Shown: positions 30,687-59,104 of the stretch, piece after piece
Numbering within the stretch: the stretch's first letter is position 1
Layout: each line of letters opens with the position of its first letter
Program-made: the position numbers and the translations under genes
Assembly (NCBI RefSeq): GCF_003997495.1
Contig: NZ_RZRU01000001.1
Coordinates: 372,001-436,000, forward strand
DNA from: Mesorhizobium sp. M7A.F.Ca.US.008.03.1.1
Lineage (GTDB): Bacteria > Pseudomonadota > Alphaproteobacteria > Rhizobiales > Rhizobiaceae
Length of the DNA: 64,000 nt
Reading direction: 5' to 3'
Notes under the pieces: model-generated
What the model was told of the DNA's origin: nothing
The model's database searches: none
The model's input: the letters and a program-made list of their open reading frames with translations, nothing else

Positions 30687-30699
30687 AGCAAAACGCTAT
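30685..30699. promoter_or_regulatory. Predicted LysR-type binding site
   Basis: ATAGC and GCTAT flank AAAAC, giving an inverted repeat with the LysR consensus T-N11-A (30686-30698). It overlaps the regulator's start codon and lies about 80 bases before the first catabolic gene. That position suits repression of the regulator's own gene and activation of the divergent operon. Confidence 0.6.
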
Positions 30700-30779: not shown

Positions 30780-31685
30780 ATGCACGGCCAGCACGACCCG
30801 AAGCGGGATGAGTTCACCAAGGCGATCTCGACGCAGGCCGAGGAATTCTCGCGGCGCCTGACAGCAATGGGCCAGTCCCGCCTGGCAGCGGCGGCGCAGG
30901 CTGCTGTGGATGGTTTGCACGCGCTGATCGTGGAGTTGCGGCCCTCCGGCGAGGAGTTCCGCCAGGCGATCGATTTTCTGACCGAGCTTGGCCACTACGC
31001 CGATGCGCGGCGCCAGGAATGGGTGCTGTTCGCCGATGTCCTGGGTGTGTCGTCGCTGATCGAGGATCAGAACAGCCCGCGCCCCGCCGGGGCGACACCA
31101 AACACCCTGGCTGGGCCCTTCTACCGCGCCGATGTGCCGGAGATGGCGCCCGGCGCGAACATCTCGCGCGATCACAAGGGCGAGCCGCTGGAGGTTGCGG
31201 GCAGGATCGTCGCGCTCGACGGCGCAGGGATCGGCGATGCGACGGTCGAGATCTGGCAGGCCAATGCCGAGGGTCTCTACGAGAACCAGGAACCCGACCG
31301 GCAGCCGGAATTCAATCTGCGCGGACGGTTCCGTACCGATCCGCAGGGGCGGTTCCGTTTCGCGACGGTGAAGCCGAAGGGCTACACGCTGCCGTCGGAC
31401 GGACCGGTCGGTCAATTGATGTCAGCGCTTGGCCTTGGCCTCGAGCGGCCGGCCCATATCCATTTTCGCGTCTCGGCGGAGGGCTTCGAAACGCTGACCA
31501 CCCACATCTTCGACCGGTCCGACCCTGCGATCGGCCGGGATGCCATCTTCGGGGTCAAACCCGAACTCATGGCCGAGTTCCGCGCGCTGCCGCCCAATGC
31601 AGGAAAGCGGAAGTACGCGCTCGACCTCAACCTCGTGCTCTGCCCGCAACGGCGGGGCGAAACCGAAACCTCTGGGAGGAGATGA
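30780..31685 (+). CDS. Intradiol ring-cleavage dioxygenase, probable hydroxyquinol 1,2-dioxygenase (copy 1)
   Basis: About 301 residues of the catechol/hydroxyquinol dioxygenase family, with the N-terminal dimerisation helices intact. The non-haem Fe(III) ligands are Tyr167 (GLYEN), Tyr202 (KPKGYTLP), His226 and His228 (RPAHIHF), aligned with Tyr164/Tyr200/His224/His226 of catechol dioxygenases. It should cleave hydroxyquinol to maleylacetate; the maleylacetate reductase gene three genes downstream supports this over catechol. The ATG at 30780 has GGGAGG about 12 bases upstream. It is the first gene of the long operon. Confidence 0.88.
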   Translation: MHGQHDPKRDEFTKAISTQAEEFSRRLTAMGQSRLAAAAQAAVDGLHALIVELRPSGEEFRQAIDFLTELGHYADARRQEWVLFADVLGVSSLIEDQNSPRPAGATPNTLAGPFYRADVPEMAPGANISRDHKGEPLEVAGRIVALDGAGIGDATVEIWQANAEGLYENQEPDRQPEFNLRGRFRTDPQGRFRFATVKPKGYTLPSDGPVGQLMSALGLGLERPAHIHFRVSAEGFETLTTHIFDRSDPAIGRDAIFGVKPELMAEFRALPPNAGKRKYALDLNLVLCPQRRGETETSGRR

Positions 31686-31688
31686 CCG

Positions 31689-32648
31689 ATGGCACGTGTC
31701 AGCGGCTACCACCATTTGACGCTCTCGACCGACAGCGCTCAGGAAGATTTTGATTTCTATACCAAGGCACTGGGCCTGCATTCGGTGAAGCGCACCGTCT
31801 TGTTCGACGGCGTCATCCCGGTCTACCACCTCTATTACGGCTCGCCCTCTGGCGATGCCTCGACGATCATCACCACCTTCCCGTTCCGCAAGCCAGGCGT
31901 CTATGGCCGCCGTGGGTCCAACCAGTCGCGCACCATCATGCAGTCGATCCCGAAGGGGGCCGCGGATTTCTGGGTGGATCGGTTGAATGCGCGCGGCATC
32001 GAGGCGATCAAGATCACCCGTTTTGGCGCCGACCGTGCGGCTTTCGCACATCCCTGCGGTATCCCGCATGAGCTGGTGGAAAGCGACAGGGATCCACGCG
32101 CGCCCATCACCAACGAGGCGCAGGGCATCGGCAAGGCTCACGGCATCAAGGGAATCTACGGCGCCGTGGTGGCGGTGATGGACCGCACCGCCATGGACGA
32201 CTTCCTGACCATCGCATTGCCGCTGGAGAAAGAGGCCGACGACCATGAGGGGCTTGTGTTCCGCGTGCCCGACGCGGCCGGCGTCGCACAGCGCGTGGAG
32301 GTCATTGTCGACCGCGACAGCCCGCAGGGCACCTGGACGCTGGCGGGCGGCACGATCCACCACCTCGCCCTAAACACCGGCGACGAAGAGAACCAGCTGA
32401 AGCTGCGCGCTCATATCGAGGGCCTCGGCTTCACGGATATATCGGAGCAGAAGGACCGCAACTACTTCAAGTCCTGCTATGTCCGCTCACCCGGAGGCGC
32501 GCTGTTCGAGATCGCCTGGACCACGCCGGAAGGCTGGGCCAAGGACGAACCCCCGGGCCAGATCGGCAAGACGCTGGTCTTTCCGCCATGGTTCAAGGAC
32601 CGCGAAAGCGAATTGCAGGCCGGCCTGGAAAAGGCGGATTTCACGTGA
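31689..32648 (+). CDS. VOC-family ring-cleaving dioxygenase (PcpA/LinE/MhqO-like)
   Basis: A 319-residue protein with two vicinal-oxygen-chelate modules. Likely Fe(II) ligands are a histidine of GYHHLTL at the N-terminus, a histidine of TIHHLALN in the second module and Glu in ALFEIAWTTPEGW. This matches hydroquinone-type extradiol enzymes (PcpA, LinE, Bacillus MhqO). It should open a hydroquinone-like ring. The next gene encodes an esterase like MhqD, the usual MhqO partner. It starts 3 bases after the dioxygenase stop. The true substrate is uncertain. Confidence 0.82.
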   Translation: MARVSGYHHLTLSTDSAQEDFDFYTKALGLHSVKRTVLFDGVIPVYHLYYGSPSGDASTIITTFPFRKPGVYGRRGSNQSRTIMQSIPKGAADFWVDRLNARGIEAIKITRFGADRAAFAHPCGIPHELVESDRDPRAPITNEAQGIGKAHGIKGIYGAVVAVMDRTAMDDFLTIALPLEKEADDHEGLVFRVPDAAGVAQRVEVIVDRDSPQGTWTLAGGTIHHLALNTGDEENQLKLRAHIEGLGFTDISEQKDRNYFKSCYVRSPGGALFEIAWTTPEGWAKDEPPGQIGKTLVFPPWFKDRESELQAGLEKADFT

Positions 32649-33304
32649 GTTCAGGCAGCGGTCCGCTCCGGCTTGGGCCAAGAGGCCCGGAGGCAAAGGC
32701 GATCTGCGTCTTCGTCCACGGTCGCGGCCAATCGCCCGAAGAGATGCAGTCCCATGTGCTGTCACGACTATCCGCGTCGGCCGTGGCCTTCATCCTGCCG
32801 CGCGCACCGCTCGGCATGTGGTGGGAGGCGCGTGCCGTCGACCCGCTGACGCCGGTCGCCCGCGCGCAGCTTTCGGATGCGCTCGATCACCTTGCGGCCG
32901 CAATGGCCGCGGCGCGGGCTGAACTGCCCGGACTGCCGCTGCTTCTCGCGGGCTTCTCGCAAGGGGCGTGTCTCTCGATCGAATATCTCTGCGCGGGGCT
33001 GCCGCCGCCCGACGCCTTGGCGGCCTTCACGGGCTGCCGTGTCGGTGTACCAGCGGACGAAAGATCCGAGGCGGCGCCGGCCGGAATGCCGATCTATCTT
33101 TCCGGCGGCGATGCCGATCCCTGGATACCGGTCTCGGCGTTTGCCGATGCCGCGCAGTCGCTGGGCCGGATTGGCGCAAGCCTGCGGGCCGATCTGTTCC
33201 CGGGCCGCGGCCATGAGGTCTCGGACGCCGAGATCGCTATGCTGGGCACGATCCTCGACGACCTCGCCGCCGGGCGTGGCCCGCGCATGGAGGCGGCGCG
33301 ATGA
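32645..33304 (+). CDS. Alpha/beta-hydrolase, carboxylesterase/MhqD-like
   Basis: About 219 residues of the phospholipase/carboxylesterase family. The core shows VFVHGRGQSPEEM, the nucleophile in AGFSQGACLS, Asp in SGGDADPWIP and His in FPGRGHEVSD. The start is a GTG that overlaps the stop of the VOC dioxygenase as GTGA, and the stop overlaps the maleylacetate reductase start as ATGA, so it is tightly coupled on both sides. It may hydrolyse an ester or acyl intermediate, or protect against quinones as MhqD does. The physiological substrate is not visible. Confidence 0.78.
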   Translation: MSSGSGPLRLGPRGPEAKAICVFVHGRGQSPEEMQSHVLSRLSASAVAFILPRAPLGMWWEARAVDPLTPVARAQLSDALDHLAAAMAAARAELPGLPLLLAGFSQGACLSIEYLCAGLPPPDALAAFTGCRVGVPADERSEAAPAGMPIYLSGGDADPWIPVSAFADAAQSLGRIGASLRADLFPGRGHEVSDAEIAMLGTILDDLAAGRGPRMEAAR

Positions 33305-34365
33305 TGGACGGCTTCACCTTTCCAGGCCTGACGACACGGGTGGTCTTCGGTGCCGGCACCATGGATCGTGTCGAAGAAGAAGTCCGGCGGCTCGGTCATA
33401 ACAAGGTGATGGTGCTGTCGACACCGCATCAGAACGGCGATGCGGAAAGACTGGCCGCAAGTCTTGGCGGCCTCGCCGCCGGGATCTTTGCCGGCGCGGT
33501 CATGCATACCGCTGTCGAAGTTACGGAAAAGGCCGTCGATGCCTTCCGCACCAGCGGCGCTTCGGCGGTCGTCAGCCTCGGCGGCGGCTCGACTACCGGG
33601 CTCGGCAAGGCCATTGCCGTGCGCACGGGCGCCGACCAGGTGGTCATTCCCACCACCTATGCCGGCTCGGAAATGACCGACATCCTCGGCGAGACGGCGG
33701 CCGGCGAGAAGACCACTCGCCGCTCGCCGGACATTCGCCCCGAGACGGTGATCTACGACGTCGATCTGACGCTGAGCCTGCCGGTAAGCCTCACCGTCAC
33801 CTCGGCGATGAACGCGATCGCCCACGCGATGGAAGCCTTGTATGCCCCCGATCGCAACCCGGTCATCGTGCTGATGTGCAGGGATGCCATGGTTGCCTTC
33901 CGGGACGGCATTCCAAGGCTGATCGGCAATCCGCAGGATCGCGCGGCGCGGACGCAGGCGCTCTATGCCGCGTGGTGCTGCTCGACCGCACTCGGTTATG
34001 TCTCGATGGCGCTGCATCACAAGCTGGCGCATGTCTTCGGCGGCTCGTTCGACACGCCGCATGCCGAAACCCACGCCATCCTGCTGCCGTACACGACCGC
34101 CTTCAACGAAGCGGCGGTGCCCGATCTGCTGCGCCCGATCACTGAGGCATTCGGCGGTGGCTCGGCGGGTGGTGGGCTCTGGGATTTCGCGCAGTCGGTC
34201 GGCTCTCCGCTGAGCCTGAAGGCGATCGGCATCGAGGAGGCCGATCTCGACCGCGCGGCGGCGATCGCGGTCAAGAATGCCTATGCGAATCCGAGGCCAA
34301 TCGATCCGGGATCGATAAGGGAACTCCTTCAGGCGGCGTGGGAGGGACGCCGTCCGGGGGCTTGA
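33301..34365 (+). CDS. Maleylacetate reductase
   Basis: A 354-residue member of the iron-containing alcohol dehydrogenase family. It begins with FTFPGLTTRVVFGAGTMD and has the nucleotide-binding loop SLGGGSTTGLGKAIA, the YAGSEMTDILGET segment and the HHKLAHVFGGSFDTPHAETHA block. All are typical of maleylacetate reductases, which reduce maleylacetate to 3-oxoadipate with NAD(P)H. This is the diagnostic enzyme for the hydroxyquinol route. It is coupled to the esterase gene by ATGA and followed by an importer gene after 26 bases. No downstream 3-oxoadipate genes are in the window. Confidence 0.9.
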   Translation: MMDGFTFPGLTTRVVFGAGTMDRVEEEVRRLGHNKVMVLSTPHQNGDAERLAASLGGLAAGIFAGAVMHTAVEVTEKAVDAFRTSGASAVVSLGGGSTTGLGKAIAVRTGADQVVIPTTYAGSEMTDILGETAAGEKTTRRSPDIRPETVIYDVDLTLSLPVSLTVTSAMNAIAHAMEALYAPDRNPVIVLMCRDAMVAFRDGIPRLIGNPQDRAARTQALYAAWCCSTALGYVSMALHHKLAHVFGGSFDTPHAETHAILLPYTTAFNEAAVPDLLRPITEAFGGGSAGGGLWDFAQSVGSPLSLKAIGIEEADLDRAAAIAVKNAYANPRPIDPGSIRELLQAAWEGRRPGA

Positions 34366-34391
34366 GGAAAAATAAGAGGGAGGAACTACAC

Positions 34392-35666
34392 ATGATCACA
34401 AGACGCAGCCTACTGAAAGCCTCGGCGGCGACAGGCCTGGCGCTCGCCGGTTCGCGCCTGGCGACGCCGGCCATCGCGCAAGGCGCCAAGATCCGCCTGG
34501 GCTATGTTTCGCCGCAGACGGGGCCGCTCGCCGGCTTCGCGGAAAGCGATGCCTACAACATCGAGGCCTTCCTCGCTTCCGAGGCGGGCAAGAACTTCGA
34601 GGTCATCGTCAAGGACAGCCAGTCGAACCCCAATCGCGCGGCCGAGGTGGCGAAGAGCCTGATCGTCGATGACGAGATCAACCTGATGCTCGTCGGCTCG
34701 ACGCCAGAGAACACCAACCCGGTGGCCACCACCTGCGAAGCGGAGGGCGTGCCGGTCATCTCGACGATGGCGCCATGGCAGCCCTGGTTCATCGGCCAGC
34801 AAGGCAATCCGGCCGATCCGTCGTCGTGGAAGCCTTTCAATTTCGCCTATCATTATTTCTGGGGCCTCGAAGACATCATCGCCGTCTACACCGGCATGTG
34901 GAAGCAGCTTTCCACCAACGGCAAGGTGGGCGGGTTGTTCCCCAACGATGCCGACGGCAATGCCTGGGGCGACCCGAAGAACGGGTTGAAGCCGGGTCTC
35001 GATGCTGCCGGTTTCAGCCTTGCCGATCCTGGCCGCTATCAGAACCTTTCGGACGATTTCACCGCGCAGGTCAACGCCTTCAAGGCGGCCAATGCCGAGA
35101 TCGTCACCGGTGTGGTGATTCCGCCCGATTTCACCACCTTCTGGAACCAGGCCCGGCAGCAGGGTTTCAAGCCCAAGGCGGTGACGGTGGCCAAGGCGAT
35201 CCTCTTCCCGCAATCGGTCGAGACGCTCGGCGACGCCGGCCACAACCTTTCGTCCGAGGTCTGGTGGTCGGCCTCGCATCCGTTCAAATCGTCCGTGACG
35301 GGCGAGAGCTCGGCGGAACTCGCGGCGGATTTCACCGCCAAGACCGGGCGTCCCTGGACCCAGCCGATCGGCTTTGTCCATTCGCTGTTCGAGGTGGCGG
35401 CCAATGTCATGGGCCGTGTTTCGGATCCGACCAACGCCGAGGCGATCGCGGCGGCCATAGCGGCCACCGACATGACGACCGTGGTGGGCAAAGTGGCCTG
35501 GAGCGGTGCGGGACTGCCGCCTTTCGCCGCGAAGAACGTCTGCAAAACGCCGCTCGTTGGCGGGCAGTGGCGGAAGAAGGCCGGTGGTGGCTTCGATCTG
35601 GTGATCGTCGAAAACGCCGGCGCCTCCGAGATACCCACCGCCGGCAAGATGGAAGCCCTGGCCTGA
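34392..35666 (+). CDS. Liv-type ABC transporter substrate-binding protein (system 1)
   Basis: About 424 residues of the type I periplasmic binding-protein family (IRLGYVSPQTGPLAGF). The N-terminus has a twin-arginine-like signal (TRRSLLKASAATG, cleavage near AIAQGA). GGGAGG lies about 9 bases before the ATG, which fixes the start and excludes a longer frame from 34338. Such proteins bind amino acids, amides or aromatic acids; position among phenol-degradation genes suggests an aromatic ligand. A hairpin just after the stop probably raises its expression over the downstream transporter genes. Confidence 0.87.
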   Translation: MITRRSLLKASAATGLALAGSRLATPAIAQGAKIRLGYVSPQTGPLAGFAESDAYNIEAFLASEAGKNFEVIVKDSQSNPNRAAEVAKSLIVDDEINLMLVGSTPENTNPVATTCEAEGVPVISTMAPWQPWFIGQQGNPADPSSWKPFNFAYHYFWGLEDIIAVYTGMWKQLSTNGKVGGLFPNDADGNAWGDPKNGLKPGLDAAGFSLADPGRYQNLSDDFTAQVNAFKAANAEIVTGVVIPPDFTTFWNQARQQGFKPKAVTVAKAILFPQSVETLGDAGHNLSSEVWWSASHPFKSSVTGESSAELAADFTAKTGRPWTQPIGFVHSLFEVAANVMGRVSDPTNAEAIAAAIAATDMTTVVGKVAWSGAGLPPFAAKNVCKTPLVGGQWRKKAGGGFDLVIVENAGASEIPTAGKMEALA

Positions 35667-35672
35667 CGCTGC

Positions 35673-35699
35673 CGAGGGCGGCTGATACCGCCGCCCTCG
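35673..35699 (+). terminator. Intercistronic stem-loop after the binding-protein gene
   Basis: CGAGGGCGGC (35673-35682) pairs perfectly with GCCGCCCTCG (35690-35699) over a 7-base loop, 6 bases after the stop. There is no T-run, so partial termination or 3' protection of the binding-protein mRNA is likelier than a full stop. The second transporter has no such element. Confidence 0.6.
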
Positions 35700-35725
35700 T
35701 TCGGCGCGACCCAAGGATGACAGTG

Positions 35726-36442
35726 ATGATACTCAGGCTGGAAAACGTTTCGAAGTCCTTCGGCGCCCTGAAGGTTGCGGATTCCGTGACCGTCAGCGTG
35801 CCGCGCGGCGAAGCGCTGGGCATTATCGGCCCTAACGGCGCGGGGAAATCGACGCTCTTCAACCTGATCACCGGCAATTTGTTTGCCAATGAGGGTCGCA
35901 TTGAATTCCTCGGCCGCGACGTGACCCGCGCTCCGGCGATGGAGCGGGTGCGCATGGGCGTTGGCCGCAGCTTCCAGATTCCGCAGCCTTTCGAGGGGCT
36001 GACCGTGTTCGAAAATCTCCTGACCGCCGCCGCCTTCGGCCGGGGCGGTCGCGAAGCCGAGATGGTTGACGATTGCGCTGGTATCCTCGAGGAGACAGAG
36101 CTTCTCAGGAAGGCCAATTTCGTGGCCGGCTCGTTGAGCCTTCTCGATCGCAAGCGCCTGGAACTCGCCCGCGCCCTGGCGACGGGCCCTGAGCTTCTGC
36201 TTCTGGACGAGATCGCGGGCGGTCTGACAGAGGGCGAATGCAAGGCCCTTATCGCGACGATCAGAGCCGTCCACGCCAGGGGAACCACCATCATCTGGAT
36301 CGAGCATGTGCTGCACGCCCTGACGTCGGTGGTCGAGCGGCTTCTCGTGCTGGATTTCGGGCGTGTGATCGGGATCGGTGCGCCTGATGAGATCATGGGC
36401 TCGAAGGCGGTTCGCGAAATCTATCTGGGGCTCGAGGTCTGA
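35726..36442 (+). CDS. Liv-type ABC ATPase, LivG-like (system 1)
   Basis: About 238 residues. Walker A is GPNGAGKST, the Q-loop region is GVGRSFQIPQPFEGLTVFEN, and Walker B is LLLLDEIAGGLTEGE with the switch histidine in WIEHVLHAL. The signature loop reads LSLLDRKRLELARAL instead of LSYGQQRR. It powers the system 1 importer with the LivF-like partner. I chose the ATG at 35726 because AAGGA lies about 8 bases upstream; an ATG at 35717 is almost on top of that site. Its stop overlaps the next start as TGATG. Confidence 0.87.
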   Translation: MILRLENVSKSFGALKVADSVTVSVPRGEALGIIGPNGAGKSTLFNLITGNLFANEGRIEFLGRDVTRAPAMERVRMGVGRSFQIPQPFEGLTVFENLLTAAAFGRGGREAEMVDDCAGILEETELLRKANFVAGSLSLLDRKRLELARALATGPELLLLDEIAGGLTEGECKALIATIRAVHARGTTIIWIEHVLHALTSVVERLLVLDFGRVIGIGAPDEIMGSKAVREIYLGLEV

Positions 36443-37143
36443 TGCTGGAAACGCGTGGCCTCACCGCGAATTACGGCCAGTTCCGGGCGCTGTTCGGTGT
36501 GGATATCACCGTGGCCGCGGGCGAATGCGTGGCGATCATCGGCGCCAACGGCGCCGGGAAATCCACGCTGATGCGCTCGATCACGGGCGTGATCGGCAAC
36601 GCGCCCGGTATGGTGCTGCACAGGGGCGAGCCGATTGGCGCGCTGTCTTCGGCCGAGATCATGAAGCGCGGCATCGCCATGGTGCCGGAAGGGCGCCGGC
36701 TGTTTCCTTCGCTGACCGTCGAGGAAAACTTGCTGGTCGGCGGGCAGGCGCGCAAGGTGCCCGGACCGTGGAGCCTCGACGCGGTTTATGACCTTTTCCA
36801 GATCCTGCGCGAACGGCGCAAGAGCCCCGGCATCGCGCTCTCGGGCGGCCAGCAGCAGATGGTGGCGATCGGCCGGGCGCTGATGTCGAATCCCGAATTG
36901 CTGCTCTGCGACGAGATCAGCCTGGGCCTCGCGCCGGTCGTCATCCGCGATATCTACGCAGCACTTCCCAGGATCCGCGAAGGCGGCGCCGCGATCGTGC
37001 TGGTGGAGCAGGATATCGGCAAGGCGCTGGCGGTCGCCGACCGCGTCTACTGCATGATGGAGGGTCGCGTCACGCTGGCCGCCAGGGCGGCCGAGGTCAC
37101 GCGCGAAGATATTCACTCTGCCTATTTCGGAGTGGCGGCATGA
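36442..37143 (+). CDS. Liv-type ABC ATPase, LivF-like (system 1)
   Basis: A 233-residue ABC ATPase with Walker A GANGAGKST, VPEGRRLFPSLTVEENL, a normal C-loop LSGGQQQMVAIGRAL, Walker B ELLLCDEISLGLAP and VLVEQDI. This is the LivF pattern. It should pair with the LivG-like ATPase, whose C-loop is unusual; in a heterodimer each ATP site uses the C-loop of the other chain. Its first base is shared with the LivG-like stop. Its own stop opens a short frame (37140-37214) leading to the permease. Confidence 0.88.
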   Translation: MLETRGLTANYGQFRALFGVDITVAAGECVAIIGANGAGKSTLMRSITGVIGNAPGMVLHRGEPIGALSSAEIMKRGIAMVPEGRRLFPSLTVEENLLVGGQARKVPGPWSLDAVYDLFQILRERRKSPGIALSGGQQQMVAIGRALMSNPELLLCDEISLGLAPVVIRDIYAALPRIREGGAAIVLVEQDIGKALAVADRVYCMMEGRVTLAARAAEVTREDIHSAYFGVAA

Positions 37144-37214
37144 CGCGGGAACCAAGGCTCGGTCGTCTGCTCGCACGGCGCTCTTGTGGCCTGATCGAGG
37201 TGGCGCGGCGATGA
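37140..37214 (+). CDS. Possible 24-residue linking ORF between ATPase and permease genes
   Basis: A short arginine-rich frame (MTREPRLGRLLARRSCG...) begins in an ATGA overlap with the LivF-like stop and ends in an ATGA overlap with the LivH-like start. GGAGTGG lies about 7 bases before its ATG. It spans the whole 67-base gap, so ribosomes could pass through without leaving the mRNA. The permease also has its own GAGGTGG. It may be a coupling device or chance. Confidence 0.35.
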   Translation: MTREPRLGRLLARRSCGLIEVARR

Positions 37215-38074: not shown

Positions 38075-38084
38075 GGGGGGCGGC

Positions 38085-40888: not shown

Positions 40889-40898
40889 GGAGGATCCC

Positions 40899-42607: not shown

Positions 42608-42680
42608 GCCTTGTCGAATTGAGGCCGGCACCGTCGATGAGGGCGGGCCGGGGAGAGCTTAACAACGGGAGGAACCGACA

Positions 42681-43988: not shown

Positions 43989-43989
43989 C

Positions 43990-44742
43990 ATGAGCGGGGA
44001 CGCGGGCAGAGTTATGGGTAGGGAAATCCTGATGAAAGCGCACGGCGTGTCGAAGTCCTTCGGCGCTGTCCGCGTCCTGCATGACGTGACTTTCGACGTG
44101 CATCGGGGCGAGGTGCTTGGCATCCTCGGCCCGAACGGGGCGGGCAAAACGACGCTGTTCAACATGATCAGCGGCGATTTGAAGACGTCCGGCGGCGAGA
44201 TCCAGCTCGGCGACACCGCGCTTCGCGGCGAGCCGCCCTTCCGGCGCTGCCAGATGGGGATCGGGCGGACCTATCAGATCCCGCGTCCCTATTCCGGCAT
44301 GACCACCTTCGAAAACCTGCTGGTCGCCGCCGCTTTCGGCGGCGGCCGGTCCGAGAAGCAGAGCTATGCTTTCTGCGCCCAGGTCCTGCGCGATTGCGAG
44401 CTCTCCGATAAGGCCAATGTCTCGGCCGGCGCTCTGACGCTGCTCGATCGCAAACGGCTGGAGCTGGCGCGCGCGCTGGCGTCGGATCCGAAGCTGCTGC
44501 TGCTGGACGAGATCGCGGGCGGGCTGACCGACGACGAATCGAAGGCGCTGGTAGCGCTGGTGCGCCGCATCCGCGACCGCGGCATCACCATCGTGTGGAT
44601 CGAGCATGTGCTGCACGCGCTGCTGGCGGTGGCCGACCGGCTGCTGGTGCTGAATTTCGGCGAGAAGATCGCCGAAGGCGTGCCCGCCGAAGTGATCGCG
44701 CTGCCCGAGGTCCAGCGCGTCTACATGGGGATCGAGGGATGA
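43990..44742 (+). CDS. Liv-type ABC ATPase, LivG-like (system 2)
   Basis: Up to 250 residues. Walker A is GPNGAGKTT, GIGRTYQIPRPYSGMTTFEN is the Q-loop region, and Walker B is LLLLDEIAGGLTDDE with WIEHVLHAL. The signature loop is LTLLDRKRLELARAL, the same unusual form as system 1. The start may be 43990, one base after the previous stop, or the ATG at 44032, which has AGGGAA about 7 bases upstream and fits the usual N-terminus (MKAHGVSKSFG). I keep the longer frame with low certainty on the first 14 residues. Confidence 0.86.
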   Translation: MSGDAGRVMGREILMKAHGVSKSFGAVRVLHDVTFDVHRGEVLGILGPNGAGKTTLFNMISGDLKTSGGEIQLGDTALRGEPPFRRCQMGIGRTYQIPRPYSGMTTFENLLVAAAFGGGRSEKQSYAFCAQVLRDCELSDKANVSAGALTLLDRKRLELARALASDPKLLLLDEIAGGLTDDESKALVALVRRIRDRGITIVWIEHVLHALLAVADRLLVLNFGEKIAEGVPAEVIALPEVQRVYMGIEG

Positions 44743-45467
44743 CGGCCGTTCTTTCCACCCACGGGCTGTTGGCACGCTATGGCGATTTTCAGGCGCTCTA
44801 CGGCGTCGACATCGAGCTGCACCAGGGTGAGGCCGTGGCTCTGATCGGCGCCAACGGGGCCGGAAAATCCACCCTCCTGCGTTCGATTATGGGCCTGCTC
44901 CCGGTCGGGCGCGAGATGGTGTTGCTGCACGGCGAGCCCGTCGGCGGCACCGCCACCGACCGCATGGTGCAGAAGGGTGTCGCCATCGTGCCGGAGGGCC
45001 GCCGGCTCTTCACCGGCATGTCGGTCGAGGACAATCTGCGCGTCGCCATCGACCAGGCCGCGCGCATGGGCGCCAAGGGCGGATGGACGCTGCCACGGTT
45101 GCATCAGCTGTTCCCGATCCTCAAGGAAAAGGCCCGCACGCAAGTGCAGAGCCTCTCGGGCGGGCAGCAGCAGATGGTGGCGATCGGCCGCGCGCTGCTG
45201 TGCCAGCCGCGGGTGCTGCTCTGCGACGAGATCAGCCTCGGCCTCGCGCCCAAGGTGATCCGCGAGATCTATGCCGCCTTGCCCGAAATCCGCGCCACCG
45301 GAACGGCGATGATCGTGGTCGAGCAGGATGTCGGCCTCGCTCGCACCGCCACGGACCGCCTCTACTGCATGCTGGAGGGCCGCGTGACCCTGACCGGCAG
45401 GTCCGCCGAAATCACGCGCGAGCAGATCGGCAAAGCCTATTTCGGAGCGGATCATGGAGTGGTTTGA
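44739..45467 (+). CDS. Liv-type ABC ATPase, LivF-like (system 2)
   Basis: About 242 residues with Walker A GANGAGKST, VPEGRRLFTGMSVEDNL, C-loop LSGGQQQMVAIGRAL, Walker B VLLCDEISLGLAP and VVEQDVGLA. It is the normal-signature partner of the LivG-like ATPase. Its ATG overlaps the previous stop as ATGA, and its end overlaps the permease gene by 14 bases. It is very similar to the system 1 LivF-like protein, consistent with duplication of a whole transporter cassette. Confidence 0.88.
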   Translation: MTAVLSTHGLLARYGDFQALYGVDIELHQGEAVALIGANGAGKSTLLRSIMGLLPVGREMVLLHGEPVGGTATDRMVQKGVAIVPEGRRLFTGMSVEDNLRVAIDQAARMGAKGGWTLPRLHQLFPILKEKARTQVQSLSGGQQQMVAIGRALLCQPRVLLCDEISLGLAPKVIREIYAALPEIRATGTAMIVVEQDVGLARTATDRLYCMLEGRVTLTGRSAEITREQIGKAYFGADHGVV

Positions 45468-46317
45468 CGCCTTGGTGCAGGGTGTCCTGCTGGGTGGCAT
45501 GTATGCCCAGTATGCGCTCGGCATGGCGCTGATGTTCGGCGTCATGCGGATCGTCAACATCAGCCATGGCGATCTGGTGATCCTTTTGTCGCTGATAGGC
45601 ATCTCGATCGCCACGGCCTGGGGTCTGGGACCGCTGCCTGTGCTAATCGTGCTGGTGCCGCTCGCGGTGCTGATGGGCTGGGTGCTGCAGAAGGCCGTGC
45701 TGAACCGCGTGGTGGGCAGCGATCCGCTGCCCTCGCTGATCGCGACCTTCGGACTGTCGATCGCGCTGCAGAATCTGATGCTCCAGATATGGTCTGCCAA
45801 CAGCCGGTCGTTGCCCGGCCATGGGATCGAGAGCCAGTCCATCGAGATCGGAGGTATCTATGTCGGCCTCCTGCCGCTGATCGTGCTCGCCGTCGCCACG
45901 GGACTGACATGGGGCCTCGACCTGGCGCTGAAGCGCACGCGCTTAGGCCGGGCGCTCCGCGCCGCGTCGGCCGATGTCGAGGCGGCGGCGATGACAGGCA
46001 TCAACCCGCGCGCCGTCTATGCGATGGCGACAGCGGCGGCGGTCGGCATCCTCGGCTTTGCAGCCGTCTTCCAGGCGTTGCGGTCGACCGTTGCGCCGGC
46101 CGATGGACCTGCCCAGCTGATCTACGCGTTCGAAGCGGTGATCATCGGCGGCATGGGGACGGTATGGGGCGCCTTCGCCGGCTCGATGGTGCTCGGCATC
46201 TCGCAAGCCATCGGCTTCCGCATCGATCCGGGCTTCGGCGTGCTTGCCGGACATATCGTCTTCCTGATCGTGCTGGCGACCCGCCCTCAGGGCCTGTTTG
46301 GAAAGGCATTGTCATGA
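45454..46317 (+). CDS. Liv-type ABC permease, LivH-like (system 2)
   Basis: A 287-residue membrane protein with about eight helices. Family motifs are LLGGMYAQYALGMALMFGVMR, VNISHGD and YAFEAVIIGGMGTVWGAFAG. It has the same length as its system 1 counterpart. It overlaps the LivF-like gene by 14 bases and the LivM-like gene by 4, so all three are coupled. Confidence 0.88.
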   Translation: MEWFDALVQGVLLGGMYAQYALGMALMFGVMRIVNISHGDLVILLSLIGISIATAWGLGPLPVLIVLVPLAVLMGWVLQKAVLNRVVGSDPLPSLIATFGLSIALQNLMLQIWSANSRSLPGHGIESQSIEIGGIYVGLLPLIVLAVATGLTWGLDLALKRTRLGRALRAASADVEAAAMTGINPRAVYAMATAAAVGILGFAAVFQALRSTVAPADGPAQLIYAFEAVIIGGMGTVWGAFAGSMVLGISQAIGFRIDPGFGVLAGHIVFLIVLATRPQGLFGKALS

Positions 46318-47339
46318 GTGCGATCCCCTATACGGCAACCGAGGTGCCCGAGGTCCTGGTCCAGCGCCAGACCCGGTCCGGTCGCATCGCGATGACGCTG
46401 GCGGTACTGGCCATGATCGGTGTCGCTGCCATGCCGTGGTGGGCCTCGACTGGCACGATCCGGTCGGTTCTGGTGCTTTGCTGCTATATCGCCGTCGCGC
46501 AGATGTGGAACCTGCTCGCCGGCTATGCCGGCCTCGTCTCGGTGGGCCAGCACGCCTTCATGGGTGCTGCCGGCTACGCGCTTTTCGTGCTGGCGCAGAC
46601 TTACGGCATCAATCCGTTTGTGGCGGTCTTCCTTTCGCTTCTGGTTCCGGCCGCGCTGGCTGTGCCGATCTACCTGCTGCTGCATCGCCTGGATGGCCCC
46701 TATTTTTCGATCGGCACATGGGTGGTGGCCGAGGTCTTCCGGCTGACCGCTTCGAACCTGCCGCTCGTCAATTCCGGTGCCGGCATGTCGCTGCGCGTGA
46801 TGAAGGACTATTCGGCCTTCGAGCGGAATGTCGCCATGTCGCTGCTTTGCGCGGGGATGCTGCTCGTCACGCTGGGCGGCAGCTACTGGCTGCTTCGTTC
46901 GCGCTTCGGCCTTGCGCTGATCGCCATGCGCGACAATCCGGTCGCGGCCGCCAGCCAGGGCGTGAATGTCGTCAAGCTGCGCTTCCTGATCTACGTCGCC
47001 TCGGCGGTCGGTTGCGGCCTCGCGGGCGCGATCTATTTCATGGCGCAGCTGCGCATCACTCCGGGTTCGGCCTTTGATCCGATGTGGGCGAACGTCGCGA
47101 TCTTCATCGTCATGGTCGGCGGGATCGGGTCCATCGAGGGCGTTCTGATCGGATCGCTGATCTTCTTCATCGCGGACCGCTGGTTCGGCGAATACGGCGC
47201 AACCTATTTCGTCGTCCTCGGCCTAATGACGCTTCTGGTCGCGCTCTACGCCCGGACGGGCATCTGGGGCCTGATCTCGAAACGGTGGGATGCACCATGG
47301 TTCCCGATCCGACGCAAGCTCGTCGACCCGAACCGCTGA
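46314..47339 (+). CDS. Liv-type ABC permease, LivM-like (system 2)
   Basis: About 341 residues with nine to ten helices. Landmarks are QMWNLLAGYAGLVSVGQHAFMG, GPYFSIGTWVVAEVFRL and LRSRFGLALIAMRDNPVAAASQGV. The ATG at 46314 forms ATGA with the previous stop; a longer frame back to 45789 is an out-of-frame reading of the LivH-like gene. It completes the second importer. The zinc alcohol dehydrogenase gene starts 13 bases later. Confidence 0.88.
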   Translation: MSAIPYTATEVPEVLVQRQTRSGRIAMTLAVLAMIGVAAMPWWASTGTIRSVLVLCCYIAVAQMWNLLAGYAGLVSVGQHAFMGAAGYALFVLAQTYGINPFVAVFLSLLVPAALAVPIYLLLHRLDGPYFSIGTWVVAEVFRLTASNLPLVNSGAGMSLRVMKDYSAFERNVAMSLLCAGMLLVTLGGSYWLLRSRFGLALIAMRDNPVAAASQGVNVVKLRFLIYVASAVGCGLAGAIYFMAQLRITPGSAFDPMWANVAIFIVMVGGIGSIEGVLIGSLIFFIADRWFGEYGATYFVVLGLMTLLVALYARTGIWGLISKRWDAPWFPIRRKLVDPNR

Positions 47340-47352
47340 CGAGGAGGATTTC

Positions 47353-48369
47353 ATGAGAGCCGCCATCTTCGATAGGGTCGGCGTCCCGCTGCGGATCGGC
47401 ACGGTGCCGGACCCGACGCCGGCACCGGACGAGGTCGTCTTGCGTGTCGCCGCCTGCGGCATCTGCGGCAGCGATCTGCACATCACCGAAGATCCCGTGC
47501 CTTTCGGCATTGAGGCAGGCTTCGTGCTCGGCCATGAATTCTCTGGTGACATCGTCGCGGTCGGATCGGAGGCAACGGGCCTTCGGACCGGCGACCGTGT
47601 CGCTGTCGCGCCTATGCGCGGTTGCGGACACTGCGAGGCCTGCGAGCGCGGCGATCCGGCGCGCTGTCACGAGATGGAGCTGATCGGCGGCGGCTATGCG
47701 CAATACGCGACCGTGGCCGCACGCCAATGTCATATCCTGCCCGACGATGTGGCGCTCGAGGATGGTGCGTTGGCCGAGCCATTGTCGGTCGCTCTGCATT
47801 GCATCGTCCGCTCGGGCATGAAACCGGGAGATCGGGTCGCCATCCTGGGCGCCGGGCCGATCGGACTGCTCGTCGCCTTCTGGGCGCGGCGGATGGGGGC
47901 GTCGCGTGTCGTGGTGGCCGACATCCACGGCCATCAGCGAGAGCGTTCGCTTGCTCTCGGCGCGACCGGCTTCGCGCTTTCGGGCGAAAGGCTGACCGAG
48001 AACCTCGCCGATCTCTGCGGCGGAGCGCCCGACATCGTCTTCGAATGCGTTGGCAAGCGCGGCCTCATCGGCGCGGCGGTCGAAGCGGTGCGGCTGCAGG
48101 GTACGGTGGTCGGGGTCGGCCTCTGCATTGGCGGAGATCAGTGGGACCCGTTCATTGCGCTGATGAAGGAAGTGAACCTGCTGTTCTCGGTCTTCTTCCA
48201 TCAGCGCAACGAATTCGGCGTTGCCCTCGATGCGCTGCGCGGCGGACCTTTCGCGCCGCAGGCTCTGATCACCGATCGGATCGACCTCTCGCCGGTTCCG
48301 CAGATATTCGAGAGCCTTCGCCGTCGCACCACGCAATGCAAGGTGCTGATCCAGCCGGACCTTGTTTGA
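47353..48369 (+). CDS. Zinc-dependent medium-chain alcohol dehydrogenase
   Basis: About 338 residues. The catalytic zinc site is in AACGICGSDLH with GHEFSGD. The structural zinc cysteines are in GCGHCEACERGDPARC, and the Rossmann loop is AILGAGPIGLLVAFWA. This is the butanediol/sorbitol/threonine dehydrogenase branch. It should oxidise a secondary alcohol or polyol-like side group with NAD. The substrate in this pathway is unknown. GAGGAGGA lies directly upstream of the ATG. The end of the gene is part of a short tandem duplication. Confidence 0.86.
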   Translation: MRAAIFDRVGVPLRIGTVPDPTPAPDEVVLRVAACGICGSDLHITEDPVPFGIEAGFVLGHEFSGDIVAVGSEATGLRTGDRVAVAPMRGCGHCEACERGDPARCHEMELIGGGYAQYATVAARQCHILPDDVALEDGALAEPLSVALHCIVRSGMKPGDRVAILGAGPIGLLVAFWARRMGASRVVVADIHGHQRERSLALGATGFALSGERLTENLADLCGGAPDIVFECVGKRGLIGAAVEAVRLQGTVVGVGLCIGGDQWDPFIALMKEVNLLFSVFFHQRNEFGVALDALRGGPFAPQALITDRIDLSPVPQIFESLRRRTTQCKVLIQPDLV

Positions 48370-48387
48370 GGCCGGACCTGTTTGAGG
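48355..48387 (+). repeat. Tandem 16-17 base duplication across a stop codon
   Basis: CCGGACCTTGTTTGAGG is followed at once by CCGGACCTGTTTGAGG, differing by one base. The first copy holds the dehydrogenase stop codon and the second supplies the GAGGAG ribosome site for the hydrolase gene. It looks like a slippage duplication that created the spacer and ribosome site. Confidence 0.7.
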
Positions 48388-48396
48388 AGAGTGTAA

Positions 48397-49185
48397 ATGG
48401 CCGTTCAATTCGAAACGCTCGAATACGATATCGGTGGCACGAAGACAGTGGTGAAGACCATCGGTCAGGGCAAGCCCGTGCTGTTCCTGCACGGCGCCTC
48501 GACGCTTGAAGGCTTCGACTTCGCGGAGGGCCTCGCCGACCGCTTCCGCGTGCTCTGTCCGAGCCATCCGGGCTTCGGCTTTTCTGGTCCGGCGCCGCAT
48601 GTGGCAGGGATGTCCGACATGGTTCTGCACTATCTGAACCTGCTCGATGTCCTGGATCTGCCGGAGAAACCTCATCTCATCGGCTTTTCCATGGGCGGCT
48701 GGATGGCGACCGAACTCGCCGGCCTTGCACGCGAACGCTTCGACAAGGTCGTGCTGATCGCGCCGGCAGGGCTCAACGATCCCGCGCACCCGGCCACCGA
48801 TCTGGGCGCGGTCGCACCGCAGGAGCTGCCGGCCTATCTGGCGCATGATGTCTCGGTGGCGCTGCGTTATTTCCCGGATGGATCGGACCCCGCCTTTGCG
48901 GAGGCCTTCGGCGCCGATCGCGCCCGCGAAGGCGAGACGCTCGGCCGGCTGCTGGCGTCGTTTGGCATGGGCCATCCGAACCTGCGGCGCTTTCTGGCGC
49001 GCATCGCCAATCCGACGCTGGTCGTCTGGGGCACCAGGGACCGTCTGCTGCCGGCGAGCCAGGCGCCGCTCTTCGTCGAAGCCCTGCCCGACGCACGGCT
49101 GATCCTGGTCGAGGACGCCGGTCATTTCGTCATGCAGGAAAAACCCGAAACGCTCAGGAAGATCGGCGACTTCCTCGCCGGCTGA
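48397..49185 (+). CDS. Alpha/beta-hydrolase (C-C bond hydrolase-like)
   Basis: A 262-residue alpha/beta-hydrolase. It has the oxyanion segment LFLHGAST, the nucleophile elbow IGFSMGGWMA, the acid in WGTRDRLLP and the histidine in EDAGHFVMQEKP. Proteins of this shape include MhpC-like hydrolases of ring-fission products and various esterases. In this operon it may split a ring-cleavage product or an ester or lactone of the starting phenol. The assignment to a step is inference. GAGGAG precedes the start, provided by the duplication described at 48355-48387. Confidence 0.82.
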   Translation: MAVQFETLEYDIGGTKTVVKTIGQGKPVLFLHGASTLEGFDFAEGLADRFRVLCPSHPGFGFSGPAPHVAGMSDMVLHYLNLLDVLDLPEKPHLIGFSMGGWMATELAGLARERFDKVVLIAPAGLNDPAHPATDLGAVAPQELPAYLAHDVSVALRYFPDGSDPAFAEAFGADRAREGETLGRLLASFGMGHPNLRRFLARIANPTLVVWGTRDRLLPASQAPLFVEALPDARLILVEDAGHFVMQEKPETLRKIGDFLAG

Positions 49186-49212
49186 CCGCATTTTAAAAAG
49201 GAGGAGAAGACG

Positions 49213-50433
49213 ATGAACAAACCCATCAAGCACGGCTCGTGGGGGACGACCACCGACTATCGCGACTTGCTCAGGCAGATCACGGAGATCGGGCCGGCCC
49301 TGGAAGCCAACGCCACCGCCGATGAGGAGAGCGGCGAACTGACTGCGGCCACGTTCGAGCTGCTGAAGCCGCTGCGCATGTCGCATATCTTCGCCGCGGA
49401 GAGCCTCGGCGGTGCGCAGTTGCGACCCACCCAGGGTCTCGAACTGCTGGAGACGATCACCTGGTATTCGGGAGCGGCTGGCTGGGTTTCCATGGTGCAT
49501 TGCTGCATCGGTGCGATGTCGGCGGCCTTTCTGCCGGACAGCGCGGTCGAGCGGCTGTTCGCGCCGGGCACCGACAACCGTTTCTCGGGGCAGGGCGCGC
49601 CGCTTGGCATGCTGAAGAAGGTCGACGGTGGTTACCGGCTGAACGGCAAGTGGAGCTATGGCAGCGGCTTCAGCCACGCCACTTATAGCCACAGTGCCGC
49701 CTTCGTCGATGACGGCACCGGCAAGCCCGCCAAGGACGAGAAGGGCAACTTGATCATCATGTGCGCCCATGCGCCGATCTCGCAGCACAAGCAGCTCGGC
49801 AATTGGGACGTTCTGGGCCTCGGCGGCACCGGCAGCATCGACTATGCGGCCGAGGACGTCTTCATCGCCGACGATCTCGTCTTCCCGATCCTGACCGCAC
49901 CGCCGCTGCGCCAGAAGGAGTTCTTCAGTCTCGGGGTCGTTGGCCTCGCCGCCATCGGTCATACCGGCTGGGCGCTCGGCACCGGGCGGCGGATGCTGGA
50001 CGAGATCGCCAAGTTCGCCCGCTCGAAGTCAGGCCGCGCCGGACTGATCGGCGAAAGCGAGAAGTTCTGGCACGACTATGGCCGCGCCGAAGCCCGCTAT
50101 CGCGCTGCTCGCGCCTTTGTCTTCGAAGTCTGGCGCGACATCGAGGCGACGGTCGAAGCCGGCAACAGCGTATCGACGCGCCAGATCAGCCTTGTCCATC
50201 TGGCCAAATCCGAGATTCACGAGGTGGGCGTCGATATCTGCAACTTCGCTTACCGCGCCGGCGGCGGCGCGTCGCTGCGCGCCGGTGTGATCCAGCGCAC
50301 CTTCCGCGAAATGATGGTGGCTGCCAACCACTTCACGATCGCGCCGTCGATCGTCACCTCGGCTGGTCGCGATATCGGCGGCCTGTGGAGCGATCGCACC
50401 TGGCAGTTCTACGACCTGATCGAGAAGAAGTAG
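49213..50433 (+). CDS. Flavin-dependent monooxygenase, oxygenase component (acyl-CoA dehydrogenase fold)
   Basis: A 406-residue group D flavoprotein with the acyl-CoA dehydrogenase fold, like HsaA or the oxygenase of 4-hydroxyphenylacetate hydroxylase. Useful landmarks are AAESLGGAQLRPTQGLELLE, GYRLNGKWSYGSG, NWDVLGLGGTGSIDYAAEDVF and FAYRAGGGASLR. A flavin reductase gene follows, which supports a two-component monooxygenase over an acyl-CoA dehydrogenase. It should use reduced flavin and O2 to hydroxylate a phenol. AAGGAGGAG lies just before the ATG. A terminator-like hairpin separates it from the reductase. Confidence 0.83.
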   Translation: MNKPIKHGSWGTTTDYRDLLRQITEIGPALEANATADEESGELTAATFELLKPLRMSHIFAAESLGGAQLRPTQGLELLETITWYSGAAGWVSMVHCCIGAMSAAFLPDSAVERLFAPGTDNRFSGQGAPLGMLKKVDGGYRLNGKWSYGSGFSHATYSHSAAFVDDGTGKPAKDEKGNLIIMCAHAPISQHKQLGNWDVLGLGGTGSIDYAAEDVFIADDLVFPILTAPPLRQKEFFSLGVVGLAAIGHTGWALGTGRRMLDEIAKFARSKSGRAGLIGESEKFWHDYGRAEARYRAARAFVFEVWRDIEATVEAGNSVSTRQISLVHLAKSEIHEVGVDICNFAYRAGGGASLRAGVIQRTFREMMVAANHFTIAPSIVTSAGRDIGGLWSDRTWQFYDLIEKK

Positions 50434-50439
50434 TCGCAA

Positions 50440-50473
50440 GGCCGGACCGCGGACGCTGTCCGGCCCTTATTTT
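50440..50473 (+). terminator. Terminator-like hairpin between oxygenase and reductase genes
   Basis: GGCCGGAC (50440-50447) pairs with GTCCGGCC (50458-50465) and is followed by CTTATTTT. It begins 7 bases after the oxygenase stop. It could cause partial termination, so that less reductase than oxygenase is made. Confidence 0.6.
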
Positions 50474-50495
50474 ACGCTGCAGAAGAGAGACGTCG

Positions 50496-51044
50496 ATGAG
50501 CTTCCCGCATCCGATGACCAACGCCTTCCGCGAAGCGTTTCGCCACCACCCGGCCGGCGTTGCCGTGATCACGGCCGATCCCGGCGACAGACCGGTGGCG
50601 ATGACCGTATCCTCGCTGATCTCGGTAAGTGCCGCGCCGCCGGTCGTCGCTTTCTCGCTTTCGATGAAGTCAACTTCGTCGGAGCCCTTGCTACGGGCCG
50701 AGACCATGGTGATCCACCTGCTGCGCTTCACTGATATCGACCTGGCGCAGCTCTGCGCGTCGAGCGGCGCGGAACGCTTCCCTCCGGGAGGCGCCTGGGC
50801 GCGGCTGCCCACGGGCGAACCGCGCTATACCGGCGTTTCGACCTGGTTCCGCGCCCGCCGGCTTGGTATCTTGCCGATCGAGGGCGCGACGCTGGTCGCG
50901 GCCGAACTCCTTGACGGCGAGGTGCAGCCGGACGAGGTCCCCCCGGAGGCGCATTCGCTGGTCTATCTCGACCGTCGCTGGCATCGCCTGCACAAGGAAC
51001 TGGATGGGGTGGCTGAGCTTCTTGAGTCGTCGCGTTTTCTTTGA
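50496..51044 (+). CDS. Flavin reductase (HpaC-like), partner of the monooxygenase
   Basis: About 182 residues of the flavin reductase-like family. Typical blocks are FRHHPAGVAVITAD, PVAMTVSSLISVSAAPPVVAFSLS and the C-terminal LVYLDRRWHRL. It should reduce FMN or FAD with NAD(P)H and hand it to the oxygenase encoded upstream. The ATG at 50496 follows AGAGAGA by about 6 bases. A frame back to 49761 is only shifted oxygenase sequence. It is the last gene of the 21-gene run. A weak hairpin (GCGCC/GGCGC, 51048-51062) follows. Confidence 0.85.
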   Translation: MSFPHPMTNAFREAFRHHPAGVAVITADPGDRPVAMTVSSLISVSAAPPVVAFSLSMKSTSSEPLLRAETMVIHLLRFTDIDLAQLCASSGAERFPPGGAWARLPTGEPRYTGVSTWFRARRLGILPIEGATLVAAELLDGEVQPDEVPPEAHSLVYLDRRWHRLHKELDGVAELLESSRFL

Positions 51045-59079: not shown

Positions 59080-59104
59080 TCACCAGAATTTCGGAGCCCA
59101 CACC

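Follow-up and report, generated by a model that had tools for sequence, protein, structure and literature searches.

A 21-gene catabolic run of Mesorhizobium built of two modules, with a possible route from side-chain phenols to maleylacetate

Introduction

A closely packed run of 21 genes in the genome of Mesorhizobium sp. M7A.F.Ca.US.008.03.1.1 raises the question of which aromatic compounds it serves and how its several oxygenases share the work. The run occupies positions 30780-51044 of the stretch of DNA analysed here, in the following simply the window (64,000 nucleotides, G000:C11:372001-436000, part of a 6.5 Mb genome), and all 21 open frames lie on the + strand. Our answer, which we hold only tentatively and rate as possible rather than probable, is that the run feeds phenols with an oxidisable side chain via hydroquinone, and likely hydroxyquinol, to maleylacetate, under one LysR-type regulator and in two modules. 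This answer builds on the gene order, the protein families, the module boundaries, an alternation between class D oxygenases and cupins, a linkage between class D oxygenases and gene 2, and a conserved LysR-type box, all of which were observed directly.

Layout of the run

The inter-gene distances from gene 1 to gene 21 are 3, -4, -4, 26, 50, -1, 40, 10, -1, 10, -1, 73, 1, -4, -14, -4, 13, 27, 27 and 62 bases. The widest gap is therefore 73 bases, and overlaps measure 1-4 bases with a single exception of 14. This agrees with an original prediction made from the window, which had described 21 same-strand genes with small overlaps and gaps of at most about 75 bases. Its inventory of enzymes and importers was also recovered by Pfam: two intradiol dioxygenases, a maleylacetate reductase of the Fe-ADH family, class A and class D hydroxylases and two importers. 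In place of the two routes proposed there, three ring-cleavage enzymes have to be counted, because a third candidate (gene 2, 31689-32648) had been overlooked. The features are listed below; start codons are our own choice and are TTG for gene 8 and GTG for gene 3. FAD stands for flavin adenine dinucleotide and SDR for short-chain dehydrogenase/reductase.

29736..30686, - strand: LysR-type regulator, divergent (Pfam HTH_1 and LysR_substrate; best NCBIfam match PcaQ, 104 bits, cut-off 304)
30685..30699, no strand: predicted LysR box ATAGC-N5-GCTAT, overlapping the LysR start and fitting the T-N11-A rule
30780..31685, + strand: gene 1, intradiol dioxygenase A, predicted divergent hydroxyquinol type (Pfam; PDB 8r2x, 208 bits)
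31689..32648, + strand: gene 2, candidate VOC-fold hydroquinone-type ring-cleaving dioxygenase, PcpA/LinE relative (PDB 4huz, 223 bits)
32645..33304, + strand: gene 3, alpha/beta hydrolase of carboxylesterase/dienelactone hydrolase type (Pfam Abhydrolase_2/DLH)
33301..34365, + strand: gene 4, maleylacetate reductase (Pfam Fe-ADH)
34392..35666, + strand: gene 5, importer 1 binding protein (Peripla_BP_6)
35717..36442, + strand: gene 6, importer 1 ATPase, LivG type (ABC_tran)
36442..37143, + strand: gene 7, importer 1 ATPase, LivF type (ABC_tran)
37184..38074, + strand: gene 8, importer 1 permease, LivH type (BPD_transp_2)
38085..39134, + strand: gene 9, importer 1 permease, LivM type (BPD_transp_2)
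39134..40888, + strand: gene 10, class A FAD phenol hydroxylase, 2-hydroxybiphenyl 3-monooxygenase family (FAD_binding_3; PDB 4cy6, 602 bits)
40899..41789, + strand: gene 11, intradiol dioxygenase B, predicted hydroxyquinol 1,2-dioxygenase type (PDB 8r2x, 324 bits)
41789..42607, + strand: gene 12, SDR dehydrogenase, opening module B (adh_short_C2; YxxxK at 175)
42681..43988, + strand: gene 13, importer 2 binding protein (Peripla_BP_6)
43990..44742, + strand: gene 14, importer 2 ATPase (ABC_tran)
44739..45467, + strand: gene 15, importer 2 ATPase (ABC_tran)
45454..46317, + strand: gene 16, importer 2 permease (BPD_transp_2)
46314..47339, + strand: gene 17, importer 2 permease (BPD_transp_2)
47353..48369, + strand: gene 18, zinc-type alcohol dehydrogenase, Zn-ADH (ADH_N and ADH_zinc_N)
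48397..49185, + strand: gene 19, alpha/beta hydrolase found with gene 20 at all 69 class D loci (GFSMG motif)
49213..50433, + strand: gene 20, class D (acyl-CoA-dehydrogenase-fold) flavin monooxygenase of an uncharacterised subfamily (Acyl-CoA_dh_2)
50496..51044, + strand: gene 21, flavin reductase (Flavin_Reduct)

Two modules that also occur apart

Comparison with relatives divides the run between genes 11 and 12 into module A (genes 1-11) and module B, the latter consisting of B1 (genes 12-18) and B2 (genes 19-21). On plasmid pRL12 of Rhizobium johnstonii 3841, only the LysR gene and genes 1, 4 and 5-11 are found at this place. Martelella, Roseicitreum and Rhizobium NZLR1 carry genes 12-21 as a block that has no internal ring-cleavage dioxygenase and is surrounded by further genes of the set in differing orders. 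This separate occurrence points to A, B1 and B2 as the natural sets, and not to pairs that each hold an importer, a hydroxylase and a dioxygenase. Such pairs had been assumed in the original prediction, in which two parallel hydroxyquinol routes would serve two related phenols (e.g. resorcinols). The doubling of paralogous importers, of hydroxylases and of intradiol dioxygenases is indeed what that model would expect. However, both dioxygenases lie in module A with importer 1, and in R. johnstonii 3841 they likewise keep company with a single importer and the FAD hydroxylase while the rest is missing there; furthermore, gene 2 is left unexplained, and gene 20 shares just 26% identity over 213 residues with the oxygenase of the gra/tsd cluster of R. 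johnstonii 3841. We therefore consider two parallel routes improbable. The earlier statement that no resorcinol-making decarboxylase is present was confirmed, as tblastn detected no relative of gamma-resorcylate decarboxylase in the window.

Where the modules are joined, the order is well kept. Genes 5-21 follow in identical order in 11 of 18 regions (L095-L105) with 78-97% protein identity, some of these regions extending to gene 4 or 3 before they end, and the order of genes 10-21 was found in other Mesorhizobium loci, among them that of M. ciceri WSM1271 (L014), whose available flank does not extend to genes 1-9. We further examined 69 loci chosen by class D, of which 59 have 10 kb on both sides and 10 have less; counts over these loci use identity thresholds that we set. 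Gene 11 directly adjoins gene 12 in 17 of them (Mesorhizobium, Kaistia, Bosea and Prosthecomicrobium). A dioxygenase or reductase of the set lies within 10 kb in 53 of the 59 loci with full flanks. GMC oxidoreductases occur in 14/69. As a whole, the cluster is real, conserved and scattered, with matches in 5/161 family genomes (at least 71% identity) and 13/146 Mesorhizobium (E 1e-150, with one partial match).

One could also suspect that unrelated catabolic units have come to lie together here by accident and have nothing in common but read-through. This scattering would suit such a view, as would the occurrence of the modules apart from each other and genome G064, where the class D gene and the FAD hydroxylase are 1.2 Mb apart. 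Yet Martelella, Rhizobium and Paracoccus have the same set put together in different arrangements, the dioxygenase or reductase stays close in the 53 loci just mentioned, and gene 2 is present in 16/17 class D genomes (see below), which makes an accident very improbable.

Class D oxygenases alternate with cupins and travel with gene 2

A pattern of alternation was seen at loci of importer 2. These were collected by a binding protein at least 57% identical to that of importer 2, in surveys of 161 family, 397 order and 385 class genomes that possibly overlap. Of 22 such loci, 17 carry a class D oxygenase and 5 a cupin of ChrR/DAD type, while none carries both and none lacks both. By simple counting the chance of this alternation is 3.8e-5, or 8.8e-4 if the three close cupins alone are used, two figures that ignore relatedness; counted by genus it is 0.001. 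The close cupins (genomes G117, G014 and G288) share 70-74% identity with the cupin of Pseudosulfitobacter or with P0122, which is related to it, and the Pseudosulfitobacter plasmids carry a cupin-SDR-importer-ADH set. A DAD-type cupin is absent from the window and, at E 1e-5, from genome G000, although the same query matches other genomes. Querying 16 whole class D genomes with the cupin gave no match in 7 and relatives of 32-36% identity elsewhere in the other 9. No cupin was found near class D in the available flanks of the 69 loci, which is supportive, these loci having been chosen by gene 20 and thus not being an unbiased sample.

The structural model of the cupin (predicted local distance difference test score, pLDDT, 92.9) has as its best fold match 2,4'-dihydroxyacetophenone dioxygenase (5bpx, 4p9g; 32% identity), followed by two uncharacterised cupins and acetylacetone dioxygenase. 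2,4'-Dihydroxyacetophenone dioxygenase cleaves the side chain of an aryl ketone. The resemblance of the cupin to a ketone cleaver suggests that genes 19-21 occupy the place of a side-chain cleaver. On a plasmid of Novosphingobium humi (L084), a distant SDR (48%) and Zn-ADH (52%) pair is accompanied by cupin-like frames (Cupin_7, 23 bits, cut-off 27), by a FAD_binding_4/FAD-oxidase_C flavoprotein that we read as vanillyl-alcohol-oxidase-like, by a second SDR and by an AMP-binding ligase.

The two branches also differ in their ring-opener: the class D branch is accompanied by one of hydroquinone type and the cupin branch is not. Gene 2 (65-95% identity) is present in 15 of the 16 class D genomes searched, thus in 16/17 including G000, and lies no more than 20 kb from the importer 2 binding protein in 15/15 of those measured. 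In G064 the relative of gene 2 is just 41% identical and adjoins its genes 4-11 (L109). The five cupin genomes have gene 2 relatives of at most 37% identity. The chance of this linkage is 2.3e-4 by simple counting, which ignores relatedness, and 0.005 by genus. In the family survey gene 2 was found in 10/161 genomes, all ten with gene 10, which itself occurs in 27/161.

Genes 19-21: a possible deacylating set

Genes 19 and 20 occur together in all 69 class D loci, and gene 21 in 67 of them. Genes 20 and 21 combine an acyl-CoA dehydrogenase fold with a separate flavin reductase and so belong to the group D two-component enzymes. With the AlphaFold model of gene 20 (mean pLDDT 74.7), fold matches at 18-25% identity were obtained to Rv3094c, a Rhodococcus hydroxylase, XiaF, HsaA and HPAH-C2. 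Its relatives number 368 at E 1e-30, and the best 120 of these 368 bear automatic names or none. Gene 20 shares 99% identity with the class D gene of Mesorhizobium norvegicum 10.2.2. An identity as resorcinol hydroxylase of the gra type was considered and dropped, the 26% identity covering only 213 of 406 residues. Two further relatives were noted: a class D oxygenase of a Rhodococcus sp. USK10 plasmid (L086), 35% identical to gene 20 and immediately followed by a maleylacetate reductase type and an intradiol dioxygenase, and a possibly truncated copy in Mesorhizobium (G1037:C1:2660386-2661177) matching only residues 143-406 at 93% identity.

In gene 19, S98 (within GFSMG), D215 and H243 are kept in 90-91 of 91 rows and probably form its catalytic triad. 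Among the NCBIfam matches listed (25 of 27), none reaches its cut-off; weak matches are to an esterase (63 bits) and to C-C hydrolases of ring-cleavage products (54 bits).

Taken with the alternation, the constant pairing of genes 19 and 20 leads us to favour removal of the side chain by genes 19-21. A two-part oxygenase with a hydrolase thus likely replaces the side-chain-cutting dioxygenase of some relatives. In its most specific form, genes 19-21 would be a new aryl-ketone deacylase, that is, a Baeyer-Villiger-type oxygenase of group D with an obligate hydrolase, which alternates with a side-chain-cleaving cupin behind the same importer and dehydrogenases and whose exit is hydroquinone, not benzoate. 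We regard this form as doubtful, though conceivable.

Alternatively, the side chain may be retained when genes 20 and 21 hydroxylate the phenol to a substituted hydroquinone; ring opening by gene 2 would then take place next to it, and the hydrolase encoded by gene 19 or gene 3 would release maleylacetate and the side-chain acid. A precedent is IppA1, a class D relative of HsaA that, according to a portion of PMC12442392, converts 2-isopropylphenol to 2-isopropylhydroquinone. The C-C hydrolase matches of gene 19 and the way in which the occurrence of gene 2 tracks gene 20 fit the same idea. Nevertheless, gene 19 is invariably found beside gene 20, whereas gene 2 has a hydrolase of its own in gene 3, and an alternation with a cupin of ketone-cleaving type suits side-chain removal better; hence we judge retention of the side chain to be rather unlikely.

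Ring-opening and lower-pathway enzymes

Genes 1 and 11 both contain the N and C intradiol domains (Pfam) and are 49% identical to each other. In the PDB, gene 1 matches hydroxyquinol enzymes with 163-208 bits (8r2x best) against at most 126 for catechol dioxygenases, and gene 11 with 236-324 bits (8r2x 324, PnpC 264) against at most 147; neither reaches a catechol equivalog cut-off. The gra/tsd dioxygenase shares 55% identity with gene 11 and 42% with gene 1. Both are thus predicted to be hydroxyquinol-type intradiol dioxygenases. Residues Y167, Y202, H226 and H228 (gene 1 numbering) are invariant in a 9-row alignment and in 50/50 rows, where the best match per locus was taken and A and B types are mixed, and we take this Tyr/Tyr/His/His set to be the iron ligands known from intradiol dioxygenases. 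Just before the GPF motif, the rows aligned to gene 1, among which are B-type rows, have A, R or L, a variability that points to a possible difference in the specificity of gene 1. Gene 4 shares 53% identity with the annotated maleylacetate reductase of the gra/tsd cluster. Hydroxyquinol cleavage and maleylacetate reduction, which the original prediction had assigned by family, are therefore supported by these scores.

Gene 2 is a candidate for a third ring-cleavage dioxygenase, of hydroquinone type. It aligns with 2,6-dichlorohydroquinone 1,2-dioxygenase (4huz) over 311/319 residues at 223 bits, compared with 147 bits for MhqO. H9, H225 and E274, presumably the metal ligands, are kept in 12/12 rows, and the Glu of 4huz aligns with E274. 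The metal site of PcpA-type enzymes is given as two histidines and an aspartate in a section of PMC3727088. Like PcpA, LinE and MhqO, gene 2 has the family fold and the expected metal ligands; it differs in having intradiol dioxygenases close by within a long catabolic run. Gene 3 adjoins gene 2 in L004-L007, L079 and L080.

The best PDB matches of gene 10 are 4cy6 (602 bits, full length) and 6u0p (473). This full-length match relates it to HbpA, 2-hydroxybiphenyl 3-monooxygenase. The partner of HbpA is an extradiol enzyme, and gene 10 stands next to an intradiol dioxygenase.

Two side observations concern the dioxygenases. A protein of about 110 residues follows dioxygenase B in relatives (L009:21952-22284 and its kin), forming a cluster across 20 loci with neither a Pfam match (for a longer relative) nor an NCBIfam match. 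Outside the window, the genome holds a third intradiol dioxygenase (G000:C11:263562-263771; L002, L088), 42% identical to gene 11, whose neighbours are an ABC ATPase and several SDR matches.

Importers

Importers 1 and 2 each comprise a binding protein, two ATPases and two permeases of Liv type (HAAT). They are paralogous, with identities of 42% for the binding proteins, 55 and 58% for the ATPases and 45 and 41% for the permeases, which fits related ligands. The original suggestion of two related phenols is compatible with this, even if the paired sets tied to it did not hold. The best solved relatives of the binding proteins score 27 and 25 bits, matches too weak to read ligands from. The binding protein type of importer 1 lies within 20 kb of gene 10 in 26/27 genomes.

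Proposed pathway

From these observations we infer the following substrates and reactions, among which the deacylating role of gene 20 is the boldest step. Module B would be the upper half. Its importer 2 (genes 13-17) likely takes up a phenol whose side chain is a carbinol or a ketone, and a carbinol would be oxidised to the aryl ketone by genes 12 and 18. Genes 19-21 would then introduce oxygen and remove the side chain, with hydroquinone as the product. Module A would be the lower half. Here hydroquinone may be opened directly by gene 2, together with hydrolase gene 3; in an alternative branch gene 10 would hydroxylate it to hydroxyquinol, which gene 11 (and gene 1) would open to maleylacetate. 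Gene 4 would then convert maleylacetate to 3-oxoadipate, and importer 1 may allow direct uptake of simple phenols.

Several points weigh against this pathway. Two of the five cupins are distant, at 36-41% (G110) and 33-35% (G084) identity, and the 32-36% cupins found elsewhere in 9/16 class D genomes fall in this same range. No close SDR was found at the G110 locus (an 11 kb contig) or the G084 locus, and the Zn-ADH near the latter is just 36% identical. Agrobacterium tumefaciens LN-1 carries LysR and genes 1, 2, 3, 4, 19, 20 and 21, with genes 5-18 absent nearby. No dioxygenase or reductase of the set lies within 10 kb in 6/59 full-flank class D loci, and many class D loci come from one genus and are hence non-independent. 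Gene 2 also occurs without class D in 6/161 family genomes and is thus not tied to class D alone. Regarding the chemistry, the class D enzymes described in a part of PMC10696468 are ring hydroxylases or dehalogenases, none of them a Baeyer-Villiger enzyme, and the IppA1 reaction offers a rival source of substrate for gene 2. Finally, an excerpt of PMC3222310 describes that opening of plain hydroquinone by another hydroquinone dioxygenase gives a semialdehyde; none of the 21 genes of the run is a dehydrogenase for it, which leaves the direct-opening product without an assigned follow-up reaction.

The cluster itself is of a known kind; one enzyme pair in it has uncertain and perhaps novel chemistry. 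If true, the pathway would add a branch of phenol breakdown in Rhizobiales, Rhodobacterales and one Paraburkholderia, and would give a short list of candidate ligands for the two importers. It also raises the question of how a hydrolase-bound class D monooxygenase acts on an aryl ketone, a question that the alternation makes directly testable.

Regulation

LysR boxes follow a T-N11-A rule. The arms of the predicted box at 30685-30699 are identical in G000, G134 and A. tumefaciens LN-1, each time upstream of gene 1. In the window it is the single exact copy, with one further copy with mismatch against 0.69 expected. Exact matches were obtained in 11/112 loci, among them L030, L031, L039 and L049. 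An exact copy also lies ahead of the gene 2 orthologue, between it and a second LysR gene, in L006, L079, L080 and L110, and the pair of genes 2 and 3 sits behind this second LysR gene in Rhizobium NZLR1, Shinella PSBB067, WYJ-E13 and L110. Its presence before gene 1 and, in four relatives, before gene 2 suggests that the hydroquinone branch belongs to the same predicted regulon. Inside the run neither sigma-70-like promoters (3 versus 2.3 in dinucleotide shuffles) nor terminator-like sites (14 versus 11.5) are in excess.

A single LysR regulator, as originally predicted, is not general. A XylR_N/V4R regulator was found at 21/69 class D loci, and in L112 (G160, class D 71% identical), where the order of the run is kept, it stands divergently between genes 11 and 12. 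In the simplest history, module B would have lost its own regulator here and come under the LysR promoter. No convincing candidate for a sigma-54 (-24/-12) consensus site was seen upstream of gene 12. For two XylR_N/V4R regulators preceding module B, the sigma-54 contact domain is borderline in one (L047:578-2224; 21.2 against a cut-off of 20.2, and 23.3 against 25) and clear in the other (L081:8603-10198; 45 against 25), and scans for both found no -24/-12 site.

Comparison with known systems

The gra/tsd cluster on pRL12 (L087) resembles the run in its hydroxyquinol-type dioxygenase, its maleylacetate reductase and its class D oxygenase with flavin reductase. Unlike the run, it has a decarboxylase and an MFS transporter, and it lacks the importer pair, the SDR, the Zn-ADH, gene 2 and the class A hydroxylase. 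In a part of PMC4136779, a salicylate-induced dioxygenase and maleylacetate reductase of R. leguminosarum 3841 are reported as pRL120214-215; by gene content rather than locus tag, these fit the gra/tsd cluster and not the present module. A portion of PMC3333776 names neither the gra/tsd cluster nor the pRL12 module. Among the open-licence PMC papers listed in literature searches, no title or abstract opening names the 21-gene cluster, and guessed locus tags for the pRL12 module yielded no papers. The gra/tsd cluster occupies NC_008378.1 222-227 kb, separate from that module on the same plasmid.

The 4-hydroxyacetophenone (hap) pathway of Pseudomonas fluorescens ACB relies on a Baeyer-Villiger enzyme of class B and on a hydroquinone dioxygenase with two subunits, and its later steps lead to maleylacetate. 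Both enzyme types are absent among the 21 proteins (Pfam), whereas the logic, from aryl ketone to 4-hydroxyphenyl acetate to hydroquinone, is like our proposal (PMC3727088, in part). The ipp cluster of Rhodococcus sp. D-6, which acts on 2-isopropylphenol, shares with the run a HsaA-like class D oxygenase with flavin reductase and a hydroquinone that is opened by a dioxygenase; its description, as far as given in the portion of PMC12442392, includes neither importers nor an intradiol dioxygenase, and the ring-opener is of another kind. As a lead by analogy and by description only, a coumarin route could be considered, since HcdE of P. mandelii is a Zn-ADH-type enzyme that reduces coumarins (part of PMC7913881); that route leads to a different ring-cleavage substrate.

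Further observations

A plasmid of 246,192 bp filed under 'Dysgonomonadaceae bacterium zrk40' (CP070278.1) gave the same match values as the 246,197 bp plasmid of Martelella lutilitoris (L004, NZ_CP066788.1); the two share a source entry, and the assembly is probably mislabelled or mixed. Downstream of the run, 51354-60235 holds an apparent sugar/polyol operon with a FGGY kinase, a DeoR regulator, a DAO-type FAD oxidoreductase, a DUF2291 lipoprotein and a permease.

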